Positions 1 to 8,204 of a stretch of DNA of 8,204 nucleotides are shown here, one piece after another. The notes beneath the pieces were generated by a model. That model did not search any database and had not been told where the DNA came from. It worked only from the letters and a program-made list of their open reading frames with translations. Position numbers and translations under genes: made by a program. The stretch covers positions 1 to 8,204 of the forward strand of contig DAOVRJ010000106.1 in the NCBI GenBank assembly GCA_030628225.1, in the 5' to 3' direction. Within the stretch, counting starts at the first letter, position 1. Every line of letters starts with the position of its first letter. This stretch comes from Candidatus Zixiibacteriota bacterium (GTDB lineage: Bacteria; SM23-81).

Positions 1-849
1 AAAAAGGGGAACCTGCTCCAACGGCTGGGTTCCCGGAAAGAGGAAGTGCCCACCCACTCCCATTTGAGCCGCTAGCCCATGCAGCGCCTCCAGCTGATCG
101 GGCCTGCCCCCCACCAGCAGGTAGACAACCTGAGGAAATTCCCTCAGCACCTCCGGAGCCCCCCGGATCAGCAGATCCAACCCCTGATTCTGCTCAAATG
201 TGCCGGTGTAGGCCACCACCAACTTCCCCCCCAGACCCAGGTTTTTTCTCAGCTCCGCCGCCATAAGCTCCCTGGATTCCGGGGGCTCACCAACGGCGTA
301 GTTCTCGATGAGAAACTGTTTCTTTTTTCCATCCAGACAACTCACGTGCTGCTCCAGATCCGGACAGATAGTAATCACTGAGTGAGCGCGGTGGATGACA
401 AATCTCTCCAGGCGGGAAAAGAGCCAGACCAGAGGCGCGTAATTGGCAAAATGGTAATTGGCCAACTGCTGGGGCAGCGATGAATGCATATCGTACAGCA
501 ATTTCACCCCGAACATGGCCGCCAGAGGAGCGACCAGGTAGGCCGCCTCCTCGTGGGCATGAATCACATCATAGCGACCTGTGGAGAGCATGGCAAAAGC
601 CTTAAACCAGAGCATCAGATCCAGAAGAAGTTTGACATAAGATGGACCCACTTTCACTCGCCGGATCAGAGGGAAACGCGGAATGCGAAAAATGCGCACC
701 CCCTCTATCTGGACATCCTCCCCCACGTGATAGGTCAGCAAATCTACTTCCAACTGGAGCTTGGACAGGGCTTTCAGCCTGAAAAAAACGCTAATCGGCG
801 TACCCCGGGGTTGAAAAAAGGGCTCCGGGGCAATCATCAAAATAGGCAT
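1..849 (-). CDS. GT4-family glycosyltransferase, 3' end cut by window edge
   Basis: This open frame runs from ATG at 849 to the left edge; 283 residues are visible and no stop is reached. It reads as a GT-B fold, family 4 glycosyltransferase that would add a sugar to a lipid-linked repeat unit at the cytoplasmic side of the inner membrane. The N-terminal Rossmann half starts with MPILMIAPEPFF and a PRGTP loop (residues 14-18), followed by YDVIHAHEE (93-101) and YDMHSSLPQQ (119-128), as in EPS-locus glycosyltransferases. The second half starts at VVAYTGTFEQNQGLDLL (211-227), the usual GT4 nucleotide-binding domain entry, with LLVGG at 244-248. The catalytic E-x7-E region is outside the window. 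The start at 849 fits the family N-terminus and has AGAGG only 4 nt upstream; an in-frame ATG at 885 would add 12 residues but lacks a good ribosome site. It lies 90 bp after the deacetylase. The family is confident; the sugar donor is unknown. Confidence 0.9.
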   Translation of the reverse strand, partial: MPILMIAPEPFFQPRGTPISVFFRLKALSKLQLEVDLLTYHVGEDVQIEGVRIFRIPRFPLIRRVKVGPSYVKLLLDLMLWFKAFAMLSTGRYDVIHAHEEAAYLVAPLAAMFGVKLLYDMHSSLPQQLANYHFANYAPLVWLFSRLERFVIHRAHSVITICPDLEQHVSCLDGKKKQFLIENYAVGEPPESRELMAAELRKNLGLGGKLVVAYTGTFEQNQGLDLLIRGAPEVLREFPQVVYLLVGGRPDQLEALHGLAAQMGVGGHFLFPGTQPLEQVPLF

Positions 850-864
850 GGTGCCTCTGGCAAT

Positions 865-879
865 GGGCCGGAGAGGCCC
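865..879 (-). other. GC-rich intercistronic hairpin
   Basis: A perfect 5-bp inverted repeat, GGGCC / GGCCC with a 5-nt loop, lies 15 nt before the glycosyltransferase ATG at 849. No T-run follows it, so it is not a typical intrinsic terminator. It could modulate translation of the glycosyltransferase or RNA stability. If translation really started at ATG 885 it would lie inside the coding sequence. Confidence 0.3.
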
Positions 880-939
880 GATCATGACATGAGAAACCCG
901 CTGTTCCAAAATCCCTGGATGCGAGCTCTATGTCCCGGT

Positions 940-1767
940 TCAGAGATCCAATACCTCCTTCACTGGAGCAAATTGGAAATCCCGAATGAGGGCTTTAATC
1001 TTGTTCTCCGTCGCCCAAAGGTTGCTGTAATGTCTGAGCTTCTTTAAAAAACTAACTTCTTGCTTGGGCGCAAAGGGGTCAATTTCCCAGGGGTGAAGGT
1101 AAAAAATCGCTGGATGTCCCTGCCGGTTAATTCGTTTAAGCGCCCACTTTACGAACCAATAGGGATAGAGCCGCAGGTATCCTCCGCCGGCGATGGGAAT
1201 GTTCTTGCCCAGAATTCTCACCGTGGAGAGCGGAAACTCGATGAGCTCCCGGCCGTTGTCCAGGTTTACGGTAAAGGGATATCGGGGCAGGCCTGAGATG
1301 CCGTAGCGATCGTGTTTTATGGGAAAAACGCTGGAGTCATACAGGATTCCCTGTTCGGCCAACAGTTCCCAAGCCCATAGCGTCTCCGGGACGATGGAAT
1401 AGCTGGGCGCCCGGTACCCGATCACCTTTTCTCCCAAGATGTCCTCCAGCACCCGAATGGCCTTAGCCACGTCCTGAGAAAACTCCTCCCTGGTCTGCTG
1501 CTGAATTTGCCGGTGGTCATAGCCGTGGGTGGACACCTCGTGCCCTCTCTTCTGGATGGACACCACCAGCTGGGGGAATCGCTCGGCAATCCAGCCCAGC
1601 ACAAAAAAAGTGGCCCGCACATCTCTGGTCGAAAAAATATCCAGAATCCTGTGTACGTTGGAGGTTACTCTGCTCTCGCAGGCATCCCAGTCCGCCCGGT
1701 CTATGACCTTCTCGAAATTCGTGACCTGGAACCAGTCCTCCACATCCACTGAAAGAGCGTTGATCAT
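940..1767 (-). CDS. Polysaccharide deacetylase, XrtA/PEP-CTERM-locus type
   Basis: This is a 275-residue NodB-type (CE4) deacetylase that would remove N- or O-acetyl groups from the locus polysaccharide. Numbering from ATG 1767, the metal/catalytic motif SVDVEDWF is at 6-13, STHGYDH with the metal-binding His pair at 79-85, YRAPSYS at 118-124, YDSSVFP at 143-149, GGGYLRLYP at 194-202, and HPWEID, the last catalytic-His motif, at 225-230. The C-terminal block LRHYSNL ... IRDFQFAPVKEVL matches the DUF3473 tail seen in deacetylases of exosortase loci. There is no signal peptide. The frame can extend upstream to GTG 1818, two bases after the epimerase stop, but that site lacks a ribosome site. 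The family normally begins at M-x-NALSVDVEDWF, so ATG 1767 is preferred, with GTG 1779 (GGGGA upstream) as an alternative. The family call is confident; the substrate is inferred from context. Confidence 0.93.
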   Translation of the reverse strand: MINALSVDVEDWFQVTNFEKVIDRADWDACESRVTSNVHRILDIFSTRDVRATFFVLGWIAERFPQLVVSIQKRGHEVSTHGYDHRQIQQQTREEFSQDVAKAIRVLEDILGEKVIGYRAPSYSIVPETLWAWELLAEQGILYDSSVFPIKHDRYGISGLPRYPFTVNLDNGRELIEFPLSTVRILGKNIPIAGGGYLRLYPYWFVKWALKRINRQGHPAIFYLHPWEIDPFAPKQEVSFLKKLRHYSNLWATENKIKALIRDFQFAPVKEVLDL

Positions 1768-1820
1768 ATGGCCATCCACCCATGTATTTCCCCGAACATC
1801 CGCTGGCGAATCGGGCACTT

Positions 1821-2768
1821 TTAAGAACGAGCGGTATATCGCTTTTTAAACCAGGTCACCGTTCTCTCCAGCCCCTCCTCAATGGTCACCTTTGGTCGAT
1901 ATCCCATGAACTTTCCAGCCCTGGAGATGTCAGCCAGAGAGTGCCGAACATCCCCCAGCCTGGAATCGGCATGCCGGGGGGGCAGATCGATACCCAGAAG
2001 ACGCCGCAAACAGGCAAACAGCTCGTTCACGGTATATCGCCCTCCGCAGGCCACGTTGATCACCTGGCCTGCGGCTTCCGGGGCTGCACAGGCCAGGATG
2101 TTGGCCTCCACCACATTGGAGACATAACTGAAATCCCGGGACTGCTCCCCATCGCCGTAGATGGTGGGGGAACGATGATCCAGCATAGCCAAGATGAACC
2201 TGGGAACAACCGCCGCATACTGCGAATTGGGGTCTTGCCTGGGACCGAAGACGTTGAAGTAGCGGAGGCAAACGGTCTCCAGCCCGTAAAGGCTGAAAAA
2301 AGCCTGACAGTATTTCTCTCCGGTCAGCTTGGTGATGGCATAGGGGGAAACGGGATTGGGCTTCATCAGCTCCCGCTTGGGCAAACGCCGGGAGGGCCCG
2401 TAAACAGAGGAAGAGCTGGCTAAGACAAAGCGCCTAACCTGCGCATCCTTGGCGGCCACCAGCAGGTTCAAGGTCCCCTGTATATTCACCTCGTTGGTTT
2501 CCAACGGATTGTCTATAGACCGCGGCACCGAGGCCAGGGCCGCCTGATGCAGAGTGTAGTCGACGCCGCGGACGGCCTCTTTAACGGCGACGAGATCTCG
2601 AATATCTCCCTCCACCAAGTCGATCTTAGGGAGGAAGACTTCCAGATTCTCCCTTTTGCCGGTGGAGAAGTTATCCAGAACTCGAACCCGATGCTTTCTG
2701 CGCAGCAGCTCCTCAATGATGTGCGAGCCGATGAAACCAGCTCCACCGGTAACTAAAAAAAAGGCCAT
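1821..2768 (-). CDS. NAD-dependent sugar-nucleotide epimerase, WbpP-like (UDP-GlcNAc 4-epimerase type)
   Basis: This is a 315-residue extended short-chain dehydrogenase that interconverts C4 epimers of a UDP-sugar in the cytoplasm and so supplies EPS precursor. The Rossmann glycine motif GGAGFIG is at 8-14, the NAD-ribose Asp in VLDNFSTGKR at D32, HQAALASVPRS at 74-84, the catalytic serine stretch ASSSSVYG at 117-124, and the catalytic Tyr143 and Lys147 in YAITK. The segments FGPRQDPNSQYAAVVPRF (174-191), YGDGEQSRDFSYV (204-216) and GDVRHSLADIS (272-282) resemble WbpP/TviC-type UDP-GlcNAc or UDP-GlcNAcA 4-epimerases more than plain GalE. An upstream in-frame ATG at 2804 would add 12 residues, but ATG 2768 has AAGGAGG 10 nt upstream and the standard N-terminus, so it is chosen. 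It starts 53 bp after the kinase stop. Substrate specificity is inferred. Confidence 0.93.
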   Translation of the reverse strand: MAFFLVTGGAGFIGSHIIEELLRRKHRVRVLDNFSTGKRENLEVFLPKIDLVEGDIRDLVAVKEAVRGVDYTLHQAALASVPRSIDNPLETNEVNIQGTLNLLVAAKDAQVRRFVLASSSSVYGPSRRLPKRELMKPNPVSPYAITKLTGEKYCQAFFSLYGLETVCLRYFNVFGPRQDPNSQYAAVVPRFILAMLDHRSPTIYGDGEQSRDFSYVSNVVEANILACAAPEAAGQVINVACGGRYTVNELFACLRRLLGIDLPPRHADSRLGDVRHSLADISRAGKFMGYRPKVTIEEGLERTVTWFKKRYTARS

Positions 2769-2778
2769 GGAACTCGGT

Positions 2779-2785
2779 CCTCCTT
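2779..2785 (-). promoter_or_regulatory. Strong ribosome binding site deciding the epimerase start
   Basis: AAGGAGG on the minus strand, 10 nt before ATG 2768. It decides against the longer frame from ATG 2804, because the site would then lie inside the coding region. Confidence 0.75.
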
Positions 2786-2821
2786 GGCAAAAACGGCGGG
2801 CCACAGATAATAATTGTGCCT

Positions 2822-3601
2822 TCAGGTCTCCTCTTTAGAGGCAAAGGAGATCTCCGGCTTGGCACTGTAGTACTTGTAGTACTTGTATCGATAGTGATAG
2901 GGCAGCACCTCAGAGAGGTCATTGATCACGACACCTAAAATATTGGCATCGGCGTTCTTTATGATGGACACTCCCCTCTGTCCCACCTCTCGCGGAGTTT
3001 TGCCCGAGAGGAATACGAACAAGATACCATCCATCTCCTTGGCTATCATCTCGGGCTCGCTAACCGGAATTGCCGGCGGAAAATCGAAGATAATCACGTC
3101 AAAATTGGCCCTCAGCTCATCGAGGATCTTATTTATCTTGCCATCCTCGAAGAGCTTAGAGGGGCTTCGGTGAAAGCGACCACCGGTGATGACCATGAGA
3201 TTCTCCAACCGTGTGCTCTTATAAGCCGCCCTGACCTTCAGATCTCCATCTAATATCTCAGCCAGCCCGTTGCGTCGGCTAAAACCAAACAGGGTGTGAA
3301 TCTGCGGACGTCTCAGGTCTGCATCTACCAGCAAGATCTTTTTCGCCTTATGCCTGGCCAAAGCGATGGCCAGATTTGTGGCCACCGTGGTCTTGCCCTC
3401 TCCTCTCATGGCGCTGGTCACCATCAAGGCCAGAGGTTTGGTCTGATCGCAAAGATCCAATACCCTTTTGCCCAGCCGGCGAAACTCCGTACCCTGGGGA
3501 GATTCGTCCATGTATTTCCCCAGGGCAGAGCTGCTTTTTTTATCCCTTTTCCCTTTCAACGTCAGGCTCTCCCTGTAGCAAAGTAATTTACTCCTAACCA
3601 C
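2822..3601 (-). CDS. CpsD/CapB-family bacterial tyrosine kinase (BY-kinase)
   Basis: This is a 259-residue cytoplasmic P-loop kinase of the CpsD/CapB/Wzc-C-terminal type, which autophosphorylates on tyrosines and controls polysaccharide polymerisation with the Wzz partner. Visible motifs are Walker A SAMRGEGKTT (63-72, Lys70), Walker A' ILLVDAD (89-95), and Walker B VIIFDFPP (169-176). The tail has a tyrosine cluster, PYHYRYKYYKYYS (234-246), with seven Tyr in eleven residues. It has no membrane segments, so the co-polymerase and kinase are split into two genes rather than fused as in Wzc. The start is GTG 3601, overlapping the co-polymerase stop by 8 bp, which suggests translational coupling; the ribosome site is weak (AAGG about 12 nt upstream). 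ATG 3511 (residue 31, GGGGAAATAC before it) is a possible shorter start that would keep all motifs. The family is certain; the exact N-terminus is not. Confidence 0.94.
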   Translation of the reverse strand: MVRSKLLCYRESLTLKGKRDKKSSSALGKYMDESPQGTEFRRLGKRVLDLCDQTKPLALMVTSAMRGEGKTTVATNLAIALARHKAKKILLVDADLRRPQIHTLFGFSRRNGLAEILDGDLKVRAAYKSTRLENLMVITGGRFHRSPSKLFEDGKINKILDELRANFDVIIFDFPPAIPVSEPEMIAKEMDGILFVFLSGKTPREVGQRGVSIIKNADANILGVVINDLSEVLPYHYRYKYYKYYSAKPEISFASKEET

Positions 3602-5168
3602 CTAACAGGCGCTGCCTTACCAAGATAAGTATAAGAACGGCAACCAACATACCCAGAACGATGAAAATGGCAACGCGAGCCTTTTTACTGCGCTTGGTCC
3701 CCTGCATTTCCATTCTAGGAATGGTTCCCAAAACAGCCAGTCCTAAATAGCGCTCCACATCCTCCACCGTCGTCAGGGAATGATCCAGGTACTCCACCAG
3801 AAAAACCAAGGCGAAGCCCAACATAGCTCCCATCACGCAGCCCAGCATGGCCAGCTTGGCTCGATTCGGCTTCACTGGTTTCAAGGGAAGCATGGCCGGC
3901 TCTATGATCCTGAACTTTCCCTCGGCCGCTGTCCGGTGGGCTGCCTCCTGGATCTGAGCAGCTTGGGACTGATCCAGAAACATCTGGTAGAGCTTTCGAT
4001 TGGAGTCGACCTCCTCCCTCAGTCTCTCCAGGATCAGCTCTTCCTGGGGACCCTGGACCAAAGACCGTTCGTAGTTGTTCACATAATCGCTGAGAGTCCT
4101 CCATTTGCTCCGGTAAAAAACCACATCGGCCTTAGCCAGCTCCAAATCCTGGAGAACTTCGCAGTATACTGGATTGTCGTTGTTCGTGGCTTCGCGGCAT
4201 TTTTTTCCCACTTCCATCCTTATCCCCTGGCGAAGTCTGTTGATTTCATCGGCAAGGGAAATGACCCGTGCGTCGCGCCATGTGTAGTTAATTAGCCGAT
4301 TAGCCAATTGTTGGGCCTGACCGTAGTACTCCGTCTCCATCTCCACCACCTGATTATCCAAAATCGAGATCGGCTCTCCTGAGGACAGATTCTGCAGGCG
4401 AATGGTCAGTGTGGTCACCGTCTTCTCGGCCTGGCGCAGATCTGCCTCTGTGGCAGAGACTAGCGAGCTGATGCGCTTCAGATTCTCCTGATCCTTGACG
4501 TCTCTCTTCAGCGATTGCCAGATCATTTTCTCCCGGAATTGACGAAGTTTTTCCTCGGACTCCTCCAGCTGCTGTTTGTAAATGGCTAACTGTTCGTTGC
4601 TGAACTCCAGGGCACCGCGCACTCCACTGAGCTCACGCCGGAGCGTTTCATCCACAAAAACCTGAGCCAGGGTCTTGGCCAATAAGACCACCGTCTTAGG
4701 ATCTGTGTCCTGGACGATGATGGTCAGCAGATCCGAGCCTTGACCCCGCACATTGATTTTCCTTCTTAAAGAACTGATCAGCCACCGCTCCACCATCTCA
4801 TCCACGGTCAGATCTGGAAAGTTCTCTTTTTCCTGTTCGGCCTTGGCCCGGAGCCTGGGATTGGTATCCAGCTGTAAAGTTCTGATCATCCGTCTCAGGT
4901 AATCCCTGCTGGTGATCTCTCTCTTAAGAGTGCTGATGTGCTCCCGGGAGCTCCCGCTGGCGGCCATCTTCTCCACCGACCGTGGCAACAGCCGAGGGTC
5001 GGCCACCAGAATGGTGGTGGATGACTGGTAAACGGGATTTATAAAAAGACTGCCCAGCATGACCGTAAGAACAACTCCCAGAAAGGGAAGGATCAGCAGG
5101 GTCTTCCTTTTATTGATCACCCGCAGATACTGCCGGAGATCGAAAGGCTCGTCTTTCTCAAAACTCAT
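3594..5168 (-). CDS. Wzz/GumC-type polysaccharide co-polymerase (chain-length determinant)
   Basis: This is a 524-residue inner-membrane polysaccharide co-polymerase that sets polymer length and links synthesis to export. The N-terminal Wzz domain has TM1 at about 23-43, preceded by DLRQYLRVINKRK. A long periplasmic region follows, with coiled coil at about 180-260 and further helices to about 400. The proline-rich PLKPVKPNRAK motif precedes TM2 (about 438-458). The juxtamembrane stretch EYLDHSLTTVEDVERYLGLAVLGTIPRM matches the linker that joins Wzc to its kinase domain, but here the protein instead ends after a third hydrophobic segment (about 498-518). Two periplasmic cysteines, C324 and C336, could form a disulfide. 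ATG 5168 has GGGGA 5 nt upstream and follows the export gene by 33 bp. The kinase gene overlaps its end. It resembles the exosortase-locus chain-length family, but that subtype is inferred. Confidence 0.94.
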   Translation of the reverse strand: MSFEKDEPFDLRQYLRVINKRKTLLILPFLGVVLTVMLGSLFINPVYQSSTTILVADPRLLPRSVEKMAASGSSREHISTLKREITSRDYLRRMIRTLQLDTNPRLRAKAEQEKENFPDLTVDEMVERWLISSLRRKINVRGQGSDLLTIIVQDTDPKTVVLLAKTLAQVFVDETLRRELSGVRGALEFSNEQLAIYKQQLEESEEKLRQFREKMIWQSLKRDVKDQENLKRISSLVSATEADLRQAEKTVTTLTIRLQNLSSGEPISILDNQVVEMETEYYGQAQQLANRLINYTWRDARVISLADEINRLRQGIRMEVGKKCREATNNDNPVYCEVLQDLELAKADVVFYRSKWRTLSDYVNNYERSLVQGPQEELILERLREEVDSNRKLYQMFLDQSQAAQIQEAAHRTAAEGKFRIIEPAMLPLKPVKPNRAKLAMLGCVMGAMLGFALVFLVEYLDHSLTTVEDVERYLGLAVLGTIPRMEMQGTKRSKKARVAIFIVLGMLVAVLILILVRQRLLGG

Positions 5169-5201: not shown

Positions 5202-6167
5202 CTATCTGACCCGATCCGCGATATATAAAATTCCGAGAACACCGGAGGCGACAGCCAGCACGTTCGTCACCCCACCCCATATGCTGCGCCAAGGCCCGGC
5301 CTTCTTGGGAACCACCACCGTGTCACCGGGACGAAGGGGTAAGTCCGCAGGACTTCCCTGGTTACTATACCGCTCTACGTCCACCGTGGCCACGGTGGAC
5401 TGGGACCCCTGTTTCATGAGCACGCGCACATTCTTCATGTCCGCTTCAGGTGTAGGACCCCCGGCCTGGGTGATGGCCCGTAAGATAGTGCTCTCCTCAC
5501 TTATTGGGTAAACCCCCGGGCGGGCAATCTGGCCATAGATGTAAATTACGGAGTGGCCCAGCAATTCCGCGGACGCAGATACACCTTCCCCGGAATAGCC
5601 TGGAACGATGATGGTATCGCCCGACCTGAGCACTGGGAACTTGGAAAAGTCGCCTGTTTCCAGTATCTGGGTCAGGTTCACCGAGATTTTCTTGCCCGCT
5701 TCATCGCCCGCGCGGATTACTGAAATATCGGTGAGCACAGCCCGCTCCCGGGGACCTCCCGCCTCTCTGAGGACTTCCCACAGATTGGGAATGACCTCGA
5801 AGGTGTATTTGCCGGGCCTGTACACCTCGCCGGTGACGAAAACCTTCCTGCTGTTATACTCTGCGATCTCCACCCGGGCCTGAGAGATCACCTTGTTGTA
5901 GACCGAGATGCTCCTAACGATGTTCTCCTCCAGCTCTCTGGAACTTAGACCGGCGGCCTCGATCTCCCCCAAAACAGGAAGGGAGATCTTGCCGTCCTGC
6001 CGAACTCGGGTAACGGTATTCAGGTCCGGCTGCTGCCAGAATGTTATTCGAACCACATCATCCGGCCCGATGAGATATTCTAATGCAACAGCTTGCAAAG
6101 CCAACAAAGCGATAAAGATGGCGGTGAAAGAGAGCCCCATCTGGCTACAGCGTCCTATTCGCCGCAT
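5202..6167 (-). CDS. Polysaccharide export protein (Wza/OPX family, two SLBB domains)
   Basis: This is a 321-residue protein of the outer-membrane polysaccharide export family, which forms the periplasmic/outer-membrane channel receiving polymer from the Wzz partner. A signal peptide spans about 1-28 (RR at the N-terminus, hydrophobic core 12-27). The Poly_export domain starts at YLIGPDDVVRITFWQQPDLN (31-50) and runs to about 105. SLBB 1 is about 108-188, with VFVTGEVYRPGKY and RSGDTIIVPG. SLBB 2 is about 207-287, with IYIYGQIARPGVYP and RPGDTVVVP. A C-terminal hydrophobic segment lies at about 298-317. There is no lipobox cysteine after the signal peptide, so it is probably not a lipoprotein, unlike E. 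coli Wza. ATG 6167 has AGGGG about 8 nt upstream and comes 4 nt after the stop of the small ORF. M10 is a weaker alternative start. Confidence 0.95.
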   Translation of the reverse strand: MRRIGRCSQMGLSFTAIFIALLALQAVALEYLIGPDDVVRITFWQQPDLNTVTRVRQDGKISLPVLGEIEAAGLSSRELEENIVRSISVYNKVISQARVEIAEYNSRKVFVTGEVYRPGKYTFEVIPNLWEVLREAGGPRERAVLTDISVIRAGDEAGKKISVNLTQILETGDFSKFPVLRSGDTIIVPGYSGEGVSASAELLGHSVIYIYGQIARPGVYPISEESTILRAITQAGGPTPEADMKNVRVLMKQGSQSTVATVDVERYSNQGSPADLPLRPGDTVVVPKKAGPWRSIWGGVTNVLAVASGVLGILYIADRVR

Positions 6168-6171
6168 CGGA

Positions 6172-6372
6172 TTACCCCTTTCTGGGTTCGTTGGCGCCCA
6201 GGTGAGATTCCCGGGAGGCTGCGCTCGATGAATGGATGAGCTCGCCCTGGCCGGGGAGAAGCTGCCAATGAGCGACCCCTAATTTCCGATTGTACTTCAC
6301 ATCGTATTTCAGCACCTGTACCCGCACATTGCCTGACCTCTCGGGGCCGGTTACCTGAACCACAACCTTCAC
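6172..6372 (-). CDS. Small unrecognised protein, first gene of the EPS operon
   Basis: This 66-residue ORF starts at GTG 6372 and I do not recognise its family. It is supported as a gene because AGGAGG stands exactly 8 nt before the GTG, an in-frame TAG lies 15 nt upstream of the GTG and fixes the start, and its TAA is only 4 nt before the export protein ATG. It also follows the sigma-54 promoter by about 70 nt. The first 45 residues look like a beta-rich small domain (MKVVVQVTG ... NVRVQVLKYDVKYN ... LGVAHWQLLPGQGELI). The last 20 residues are Ser-rich and polar, hence probably disordered. It has no signal peptide, membrane segment or cysteine. It could be a cytoplasmic regulator or adaptor of the EPS machinery, or a leader ORF whose translation couples to the export gene. 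No function can be assigned from sequence. Confidence 0.65.
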   Translation of the reverse strand: MKVVVQVTGPERSGNVRVQVLKYDVKYNRKLGVAHWQLLPGQGELIHSSSAASRESHLGANEPRKG

Positions 6373-6380
6373 GTCCTCGC

Positions 6381-6386
6381 CCTCCT
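6381..6386 (-). promoter_or_regulatory. Consensus Shine-Dalgarno site of the 66-residue ORF
   Basis: AGGAGG on the minus strand, with 8 nt to GTG 6372. This is the best ribosome site in the window after that of the epimerase, and the main evidence that the small ORF is translated. Confidence 0.75.
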
Positions 6387-6391
6387 ACTGC

Positions 6392-6432
6392 GGTTGGCGC
6401 AGCAACCCAAGCTATTCCCGAATACGTCCGGG
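6392..6432 (-). other. Possible leader-RNA hairpins
   Basis: The inferred leader contains two short inverted repeats: GGTTG / CAACC with a 6-nt loop (6392-6407), and CCCG / CGGG with an 8-nt loop (6417-6432). The first ends 5 nt before the AGGAGG and might affect access to it. Stems this short are common by chance, so this is a weak call. Confidence 0.25.
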
Positions 6433-6452
6433 CTCTCTGAAAATCTCTTTTT

Positions 6453-6470
6453 TAGCAAAATATATGCCAA
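6453..6470 (-). promoter_or_regulatory. Sigma-54 (RpoN) -24/-12 promoter of the EPS operon
   Basis: The minus strand reads TTGGCATATATTTTGCTA. The -24 GG (6468-6467) and the -12 GC (6456-6455) are separated by exactly 10 bases, and the flanks match the known consensus TTGGCA-N5-TTGCT almost fully. The inferred transcript start is near 6443, which leaves a leader of about 70 nt before GTG 6372. The gene upstream encodes a sigma-54 activator, which makes this promoter its natural target. No sigma-70 promoter of comparable quality was seen in the same gap. Confidence 0.85.
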
Positions 6471-6587: not shown

Positions 6588-6805
6588 GATGCTGGTTAAA
6601 GGCCGAGACTCGAGATTCGAGACTCGAGTGAAAGAAAAAACCGATCCTTGATCCTGGATCCTCGATGCTGGTGAGATAAGCTGATTCTGGATACTGGATT
6701 CTGGGTGAGAAAGGCGGATCCTGGATGCTTGATGCTGGATGAAGAGCCGAGACTCGAGATTCGTTAAAAGAAAGACCGATCCTGGGTGCTAGATTTTTGA
6801 TACTG
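6588..6805. repeat. Degenerate 7-bp tandem repeat arrays, GATNCTN orientation
   Basis: Several runs have a strict 7-base period. There are four units at 6643-6670 (GATCCTT, GATCCTG, GATCCTC, GATGCTG), three at 6683-6703, three at 6717-6737, and four degenerate ones at 6778-6805, plus one single unit at 6588-6594. A related CGAGAYT heptamer run lies at 6604-6628. Within this span a block of about 40-50 bp is duplicated: an 18-base segment at 6602-6619 recurs exactly at 6746-6763, 144 bp away, and each copy is followed by a similar AAAGAAA-ACCGATCC stretch. The arrays fill the gap between the regulator gene and the sigma-54 promoter. Nothing in them looks coding. Confidence 0.85.
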
Positions 6806-6874
6806 GTTAATAACTTAGCCCAGGAAGACACGGAGTCAAATCTGCATAAATTCGGAATTAAGCATATTACTAAC
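6806..6874. other. AT-rich spacer between the opposed heptamer arrays
   Basis: About 70 bp of AT-rich sequence separates the direct arrays from the inverted array. I see no gene, promoter or terminator in it. It would be the loop if the opposed arrays paired. Confidence 0.5.
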
Positions 6875-6916
6875 CAGGATCCAGGATCGAGGATCGAGGA
6901 TCGAGGATCCAGAATC
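6875..6916. repeat. Inverted heptamer array, six perfect tandem units
   Basis: Six uninterrupted 7-base units are present: CAGGATC twice, GAGGATC three times and CAGAATC once. They are the reverse complement of the GATNCTN units at 6643-6805, so this array is opposed to the others across a spacer of about 70 bp and could pair with them in single-stranded DNA or RNA. It starts about 60 bp beyond the stop of the response regulator gene and would be in its 3' untranslated region. Confidence 0.85.
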
Positions 6917-6978: not shown

Positions 6979-8204
6979 TCAGCTAATTTGGTAATCCTTG
7001 ATCTTGTATAAGAGAGACCGATAGCTGATTTTTAAAAGCCGGGCTGCTTTTTTCCGATTCCAATTGGTCTTGTTCAAAGCGCTTTTTATGAGGACTTTCT
7101 CCGTCTTCTGAACTGCTTTCTGGGTAGCGTCTTTAAGGGAAACATTCTCCCCCTCGCTGCTCGACTCAAGATATGGCAAGCTCTCCGGGGCAGCAGCCGG
7201 CAGCGATGTGTTTCGCTGTTCAACGGCGCGGGCGATGATGCTCTCGTCGCCCCGAACGACGATCTGCTTGATCAAGTTTTCCAGCTCACGAACGTTTCCC
7301 GGCCAGCTATACTCCTGCAACAGCTCCATATTCCTTCTGGAGAAAGCGTGATATTCTCGGTTATATTTCTGGCAGTACAGTCTGAGCATGTGCTCCACCA
7401 ACAGGGGAACATCCTCCTTCCGCTCGCGCAGAACAGGCAGCAAGAGGGTGATTTCGTTCAGGCGATAGAACAGATCTTCCCGAATGCGCCCCTGGGCCAG
7501 AGCCGTCTCCAGATCGCGGTTCGTGGCGCAGAGGATGCGCACATCCACCTGAATGGTCTCAATGCCTCCGACACGCATAAATTCCCTGTGTTCCAAAACT
7601 TGCAGTAGTTTCGCCTGAAGATCAGGAGACATCTCCCCGATCTCATCCAGGAAAATGGTCCCCCGGGAGGCCAGTTCGAACCGGCCGGGTTTTTTCTTGA
7701 TGGCCCCGGTAAAGGCGCCCTTTTCGTGCCCGAAGAGCTCGGCCTCCAACAGCTCCCTGGGCAAGGCGGCACAATTGACCTTCACGAAGGCACCCTTCCG
7801 CCGGCTGGAGAGACGATGGAGAGCCCGGGCCACAACCTCTTTGCCGGTGCCGCTCTCACCCCGGATAAGCACGGTGAGCTCGCTATCGGCCACCTGCTCG
7901 ATCATGGATTTGATCTCCAATATCTGTGGGCTATCTCCCACAAAATTATCTAACTCTCTCTTGGCCTCCAGCTCCGAGCGCAGGTGAAGGACCTCCTTCT
8001 TCAGCTCGCTCTTCTCCAGAACGCTGCGGATGACGATCTCCACCTCCTCCACATCGAAGGGCTTGCTGATAAAATCGGCGGCGCCCAGCTTCATGGCCCG
8101 GACGATCTGCTTGGTCTCCCCGTAGCCGGAGAGCATGACGATCTCCACACGCCGGTTGATGGACCTGACCCTCTCCAGGACCTCCATTCCGTCCATGCCC
8201 GGCA
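6979..8204 (-). CDS. Sigma-54-dependent response regulator (NtrC family), 5' end cut by window edge
   Basis: The visible 407 residues hold most of an NtrC-type activator: the end of a receiver domain, an AAA+ ATPase and a Fis-type DNA-binding domain. Numbering from Met at 8196, the receiver shows PGMDGMEVL, MLSGYGE (21-27) and the conserved Lys45 in FISKPF. The phospho-acceptor Asp lies beyond the edge. A helical linker (about 58-82) leads to the AAA+ domain with Walker A GESGTGKE (113-120), the sigma-54 contact loop GAFTGA (160-165), Walker B TIFLDE (180-185), and WPGNVREL (298-305). The helix-turn-helix lies at about 376-399 (TNWNRKKAARLLKISYRSLLYKIK). Nothing catalytic is missing in the visible part. 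It sits about 500 bp upstream of a sigma-54 promoter heading the EPS genes, so it probably activates them, much as EpsI/Nla24 in Myxococcus or PrsR in exosortase loci. The partner kinase is not visible. Confidence 0.96.
   Translation of the reverse strand, partial: PGMDGMEVLERVRSINRRVEIVMLSGYGETKQIVRAMKLGAADFISKPFDVEEVEIVIRSVLEKSELKKEVLHLRSELEAKRELDNFVGDSPQILEIKSMIEQVADSELTVLIRGESGTGKEVVARALHRLSSRRKGAFVKVNCAALPRELLEAELFGHEKGAFTGAIKKKPGRFELASRGTIFLDEIGEMSPDLQAKLLQVLEHREFMRVGGIETIQVDVRILCATNRDLETALAQGRIREDLFYRLNEITLLLPVLRERKEDVPLLVEHMLRLYCQKYNREYHAFSRRNMELLQEYSWPGNVRELENLIKQIVVRGDESIIARAVEQRNTSLPAAAPESLPYLESSSEGENVSLKDATQKAVQKTEKVLIKSALNKTNWNRKKAARLLKISYRSLLYKIKDYQIS

Follow-up and report, generated by a model that had tools for sequence, protein, structure and literature searches.

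Control of exopolysaccharide by sigma-54 is a known theme (PMC3162934), and in reported cases of sigma-54 control over the cell exterior, among them exopolysaccharide linked to NtrC or AlgB (Francke et al. 2011, PMC3162934; Burkholderia NtrC, PMC5491218), exopolysaccharide production is tied to a sigma-54 promoter together with an enhancer-binding protein. The PrsK/PrsR-RpoN system (PMC1569441; Aquincola pepA, PMC9850573) combines an NtrC-type two-component system, a −24/−12 promoter and XrtA-type exopolysaccharide genes nearby. Its PEP-CTERM sigma-54 regulon was described in 2006 as limited, within the set of genomes discussed at the time, to Proteobacteria (Haft et al. 2006, PMC1569441), and in Aquincola RpoN control has been reported for a PEP-CTERM gene, the transcription of exopolysaccharide genes being apparently not regulated by RpoN1 (PMC9850573). 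The literature searched yielded no study of sigma-54 in Zixibacteria.

The locus analysed here shares these traits with both groups of systems. It differs from the Burkholderia NtrC and AlgB-linked examples in that the activator gene directly adjoins the operon and the host belongs to an uncultured phylum, and from PrsK/PrsR in that the regulator of the window and the kinase of its nearest relative do not reach the family cut-offs, no PrsR-type box is present and it is the polysaccharide operon itself that would be controlled. The window, the whole stretch of 8,204 nucleotides that was analysed, is the entire contig C34 of a 2.34-Mb MAG from the same family as candidate division Zixibacteria SM23_81 (G001), the nearest genome among those compared. 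Its minus strand carries, in this order, genes for a regulator, an exporter, a chain-length determinant, an autokinase, an epimerase, a deacetylase and a glycosyltransferase, and the features are as follows.

6979–8202, minus strand: response regulator of the NtrC/AtoC type, truncated at its N-terminus where the contig ends (PF00072, PF00158, PF02954)
6597–6916, no single strand: heptad-repeat array of GATNCTN and GAGAYTC units in both orientations, lengthening the gap between regulator and promoter
6453–6470, minus strand: predicted sigma-54 promoter TTGGCATATATTTTGCTA, exact consensus, kept in two relatives, pattern enriched genome-wide
6168–6443, minus strand: predicted 5′ leader that would head the operon transcript; it contains an open frame of 66 codons (GTG 6372 to 6172) and is conserved relative to SM23_81
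5202–6167, minus strand: Wza-type polysaccharide export protein (PF02563, PF10531/PF22461; TIGR03027 at 124 bits against a cut-off of 180)
3594–5168, minus strand: chain-length determinant (Wzz/GNVR) of the XrtA-associated type (TIGR03007 at 236 bits, below its cut-off of 279; PF02706, PF13807)
2822–3601, minus strand: BY-type tyrosine autokinase (TIGR01007 above cut-off; TIGR03018 at 140 bits, below cut-off)
1821–2804, minus strand: NAD-dependent sugar epimerase/dehydratase (PF01370)
940–1818, minus strand: XrtA-system polysaccharide deacetylase (DUF3473; TIGR03006 at 386 bits, above its cut-off of 276)
1–909, minus strand: glycosyltransferase, cut by the contig end (PF13579, PF00534)

The deacetylase score, together with an exosortase that this genome encodes on contig C173, marks this as an XrtA/PEP-CTERM-type exopolysaccharide locus, with wza, wzz and the autokinase matching the XrtA-system models below cut-off.

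The earlier note on this DNA had proposed a near-consensus sigma-54 promoter with GG-N10-GC spacing. The element, TTGGCATATATTTTGCTA, reads from 6470 to 6453 and has GG at 6468–6467 and GC at 6456–6455 with exactly 10 bases in between; it is in fact an exact match to TGGCAY-N5-TTGCW. It was also the sole exact match to TGGCAYRN4TTGCW within the window, where the two further matches to this pattern had 2 mismatches each and lacked the GG/GC pair. When the gap between regulator and wza was shuffled with its dinucleotides preserved, an exact TGGCAYN5TTGCW arose on the sense strand in 9 of 20,000 shuffles, and the corresponding gaps of SM23_81 and of G002, a more distant genome of the same phylum, gave exact matches in 6/20,000 and 8/20,000, respectively. 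The element lies 301 bp before the wza start codon, and transcription is predicted to start at about 6443, about 12 bases past its GC. No sigma-70-like promoter was found between 6100 and 7050.

The gap in which the element lies was rightly described as long, 606 bases separating the regulator stop at 6979 from the GTG at 6372, although its length is due mainly to the heptad-repeat array at 6597–6916. The array is missing at the corresponding place in SM23_81. Triple units of the GATNCTN type occurred 161 times in the source genome, 24 times in SM23_81 and not at all in G002 and G003, and the GATNCTN/GAGAYTC heptads are a dispersed, family-specific intergenic repeat.

To evaluate the element in relatives, we compared the orthologous loci. 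SM23_81 carries TTGGCATATATCTTGCTT at the identical distance of 301 bp from the wza start, with 18 of 20 aligned bases matching those of the window, while in the 80 bases that precede it on the 5′ side, each of the eight ten-base blocks matched at only 1–6 positions. In G002, an exact element, TTGGCACAGATTTTGCTT, precedes wza by 370 bp, and the orthologous regulator (63% identical) and kinase genes adjoin the wza promoter in divergent orientation. Thus the GG/GC bases, whose conservation upstream of orthologous loci the earlier note had put forward as a check, are kept in two relatives. At greater distance, 17 wza loci from Zixibacteria, KSB1 and other groups had no such element within 900 bp, and at the eight Zixibacteria wza loci checked, a GAFTGA gene was absent from the stretch examined around them. 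Two Zixibacteria loci whose Wza is nearer in protein (51–52%) than that of G002 (48%) lack the element. Element and regulator therefore seem to appear and disappear together, with only three genomes having both.

The source genome encodes RpoN on contig C281 (464 aa; PF00309, PF04963, PF04552; RpoN box ARRTVAKYRE), so that the sigma factor required by the proposal is present as a complete gene. Genome-wide, we counted the consensus by pattern search and used the reversed consensus as the control. Exact TGGCAYN5TTGCW sites outnumbered the control by 17 to 2 in the source genome, 18 to 5 in SM23_81 and 30 to 2 in G002, and of the 65 exact sites that these genomes hold together, 16 had the AAA+ domain of an activator at a distance of 2 kb or less, against 1.4 expected, indicating that a promoter beside its own activator is a recurrent layout in these genomes.

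Other exact sites stood about 70 bases ahead of an Hsp20-like small heat-shock gene in the source genome and G002, and ahead of genes for predicted secreted proteins with T9SS/FlgD-like sorting segments at or near the end (e.g. SGLYICKLQAGDYQETMKMVLLR). An identical exact sigma-54-like site, TGGCACTGATTTTGCA, was found 356 bases ahead of glmS in two genomes; it lies inside an overlapping long frame and may therefore reflect codon conservation.

The regulator has a receiver domain (cut in the window), an AAA+ domain with GAFTGA (7719–7702) and Walker A, and a Fis-type helix-turn-helix, in agreement with the claim that a GAFTGA activator gene stands beside the element. Its domain order is that of the AtoC/NtrC type (NCBIfam NF008469, TIGR01818), whose models gave the best scores, but it misses every equivalog cut-off and is therefore not AtoC or NtrC itself. 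The SM23_81 regulator shared 82% identity with it and the G002 regulator 63%, the latter as compared with 36–38% for another activator of the source genome. A two-component system, as had been suggested, also fits the neighbouring genes: the regulator of SM23_81 is directly preceded by the gene for a histidine kinase with a GAF domain, and that of G002 by related kinase genes. The source genome has a homologue of the kinase (78%) where contig C47 ends, and the N-terminus of the regulator, with the phospho-acceptor region, comes after it. Receiver, GAFTGA AAA+ domain, Fis-type helix-turn-helix and cognate kinase gene together place the regulator among the NtrC-family two-component activators. 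The end of C47 and the start of the window share an overlap of 95 nt that is 95% rather than 100% identical. This suggests that strains are mixed where the contigs break, and the physical link of kinase and regulator in the source genome is therefore presumed. No dyad common to the three upstream regions (window, SM23_81 and G002) was found as an enhancer site, and no motif emerged with those three sequences.

Taken together, the exact consensus, the RpoN gene, the enrichment of the pattern and the conservation with a kinase–regulator pair give the hypothesis good support, and judging from sequence the element is very probably a sigma-54 (RpoN) promoter through which the adjacent two-component regulator drives the polysaccharide operon. 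We infer control by this particular regulator from its adjacency, kept in three genomes, and from the tendency of such sites to adjoin activator genes.

About ten activator genes are present in the source genome, including a true PrsR and one on the exosortase contig C173, so another enhancer-binding protein, for example the PEP-CTERM PrsR or the exosortase-adjacent activator, could act at a working sigma-54 promoter here. We consider this unlikely, as the adjacent regulator is the one kept beside the operon in three genomes and the C173 activator is only 38% identical to it. For PrsR itself we used cut-offs of 502.6 for TIGR02915 (PrsR) and 300 for TIGR02916 (PrsK). The window regulator, N-terminally cut, scored 377.8 and its complete SM23_81 orthologue 408.2, both below the PrsR cut-off, and the SM23_81 kinase reached 83.4, far below that of PrsK; the true PrsR of the source genome is a separate protein on contig C205 (579.6 bits), encoded after a 718-aa gene in the PrsK position. 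Among the PEP-CTERM genes of four Zixibacteria genomes, nine of 12 had a sigma-54 site close upstream with at most 1 mismatch, and a motif search upstream of ten PEP-CTERM promoters returned GTCGG-N8-ACA (log-likelihood 102.9; null mean 88.8, maximum 92.9), located mostly about 100–156 bases upstream of the sigma-54 sites. Its end resembles the TTTACA with which the 17-base motif 1 reported for Proteobacteria ends (PMC1569441). In a search with 13 sequences the box was found at PEP-CTERM promoters only, and in leave-one-out scoring seven PEP-CTERM promoters reached 10.8–18.4 bits while 33 other sigma-54 sites stayed at or below 9.1 and the three polysaccharide promoters at 4.8–7.3, with a best score of 5.5 in the window. 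PrsR was consequently rejected as activator of the polysaccharide promoter. Given the sub-cut-off scores, the true PrsR elsewhere and the missing box, this promoter appears to be part of a second RpoN circuit, distinct from that of PrsR.

A very different explanation, which we regard as highly improbable, is that the element arose by chance or is a piece of a small coding frame (MTGDRFLWDRGEYHYELYNDAYAFGIYFAKKEIFREPGRIRE), with transcription of the operon arising at another promoter that escaped recognition or from polymerase reading through out of the regulator gene. Within the window, the element does lie in an open frame of 42 codons, regulator and operon share a strand there, and the primary-sigma promoters of the phylum are uncharacterised. 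Yet in SM23_81 the corresponding frame stops (TAA) right after the element and its 5′ part is not conserved, while the promoter bases are; this coding frame, with two in-frame TAG codons ahead of the 66-codon frame, was thus set aside as not kept in the relative. Exact elements, moreover, precede wza in three genomes, and in G002 read-through is excluded because the regulator is divergent from wza.

Downstream of the predicted RpoN promoter, the GTG at 6372 lies about 83 bp from the element, close to the 80 bp formerly given for the first ORF, but this ORF is a doubtful gene. The 66-codon frame was open and gap-free when aligned with SM23_81, at 72% nucleotide identity, with 0.29, 0.24 and 0.30 substitutions per codon position as compared with 0.25, 0.17 and 0.50 for wza. 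This even spread favours a conserved leader, coding or RNA, and we did not retain the frame as the first gene of the operon. Its product had no Pfam or NCBIfam match, and a relative was found only in SM23_81. A block close to the middle of the leader was about 85% identical to SM23_81, with little excess at third positions. The leader matched no Rfam family, riboswitch or other, and in folding the window version did not surpass shuffled sequences (z 0.66), the SM23_81 version doing so slightly (z −2.03), so we claim no structure for it.

In the mechanism that we infer, covering promoter use, the identity of the activator, the signal and a single-transcript operon, RNA polymerase with RpoN would sit on the element as a closed complex. 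The GAF-domain histidine kinase would phosphorylate the response regulator encoded 0.5 kb upstream of the element, whose GAFTGA AAA+ domain would then open the complex, with transcription starting near 6443. After a leader of roughly 276 nt, the transcript would run through wza, wzz, the gene for the tyrosine autokinase and the sugar genes.

These results provide a specific, testable regulatory wiring for a matrix polysaccharide in an uncultured phylum. They suggest, from genome comparison, that a PrsR regulon exists outside Proteobacteria, in Zixibacteria, and that RpoN control here extends to the polysaccharide genes themselves, unlike what was reported for the studied proteobacterium. Most interesting is that control appears to be divided between two RpoN systems. 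With about an even chance of being correct, building of the cell's matrix in this Zixibacteria lineage may be shared by two parallel RpoN two-component systems, in which PrsK/PrsR, through the GTCGG-N8-ACA box, would control exosortase-sorted PEP-CTERM proteins and the non-PrsR pair would control the polysaccharide operon, possibly with an extra layer in the 276-nt leader.
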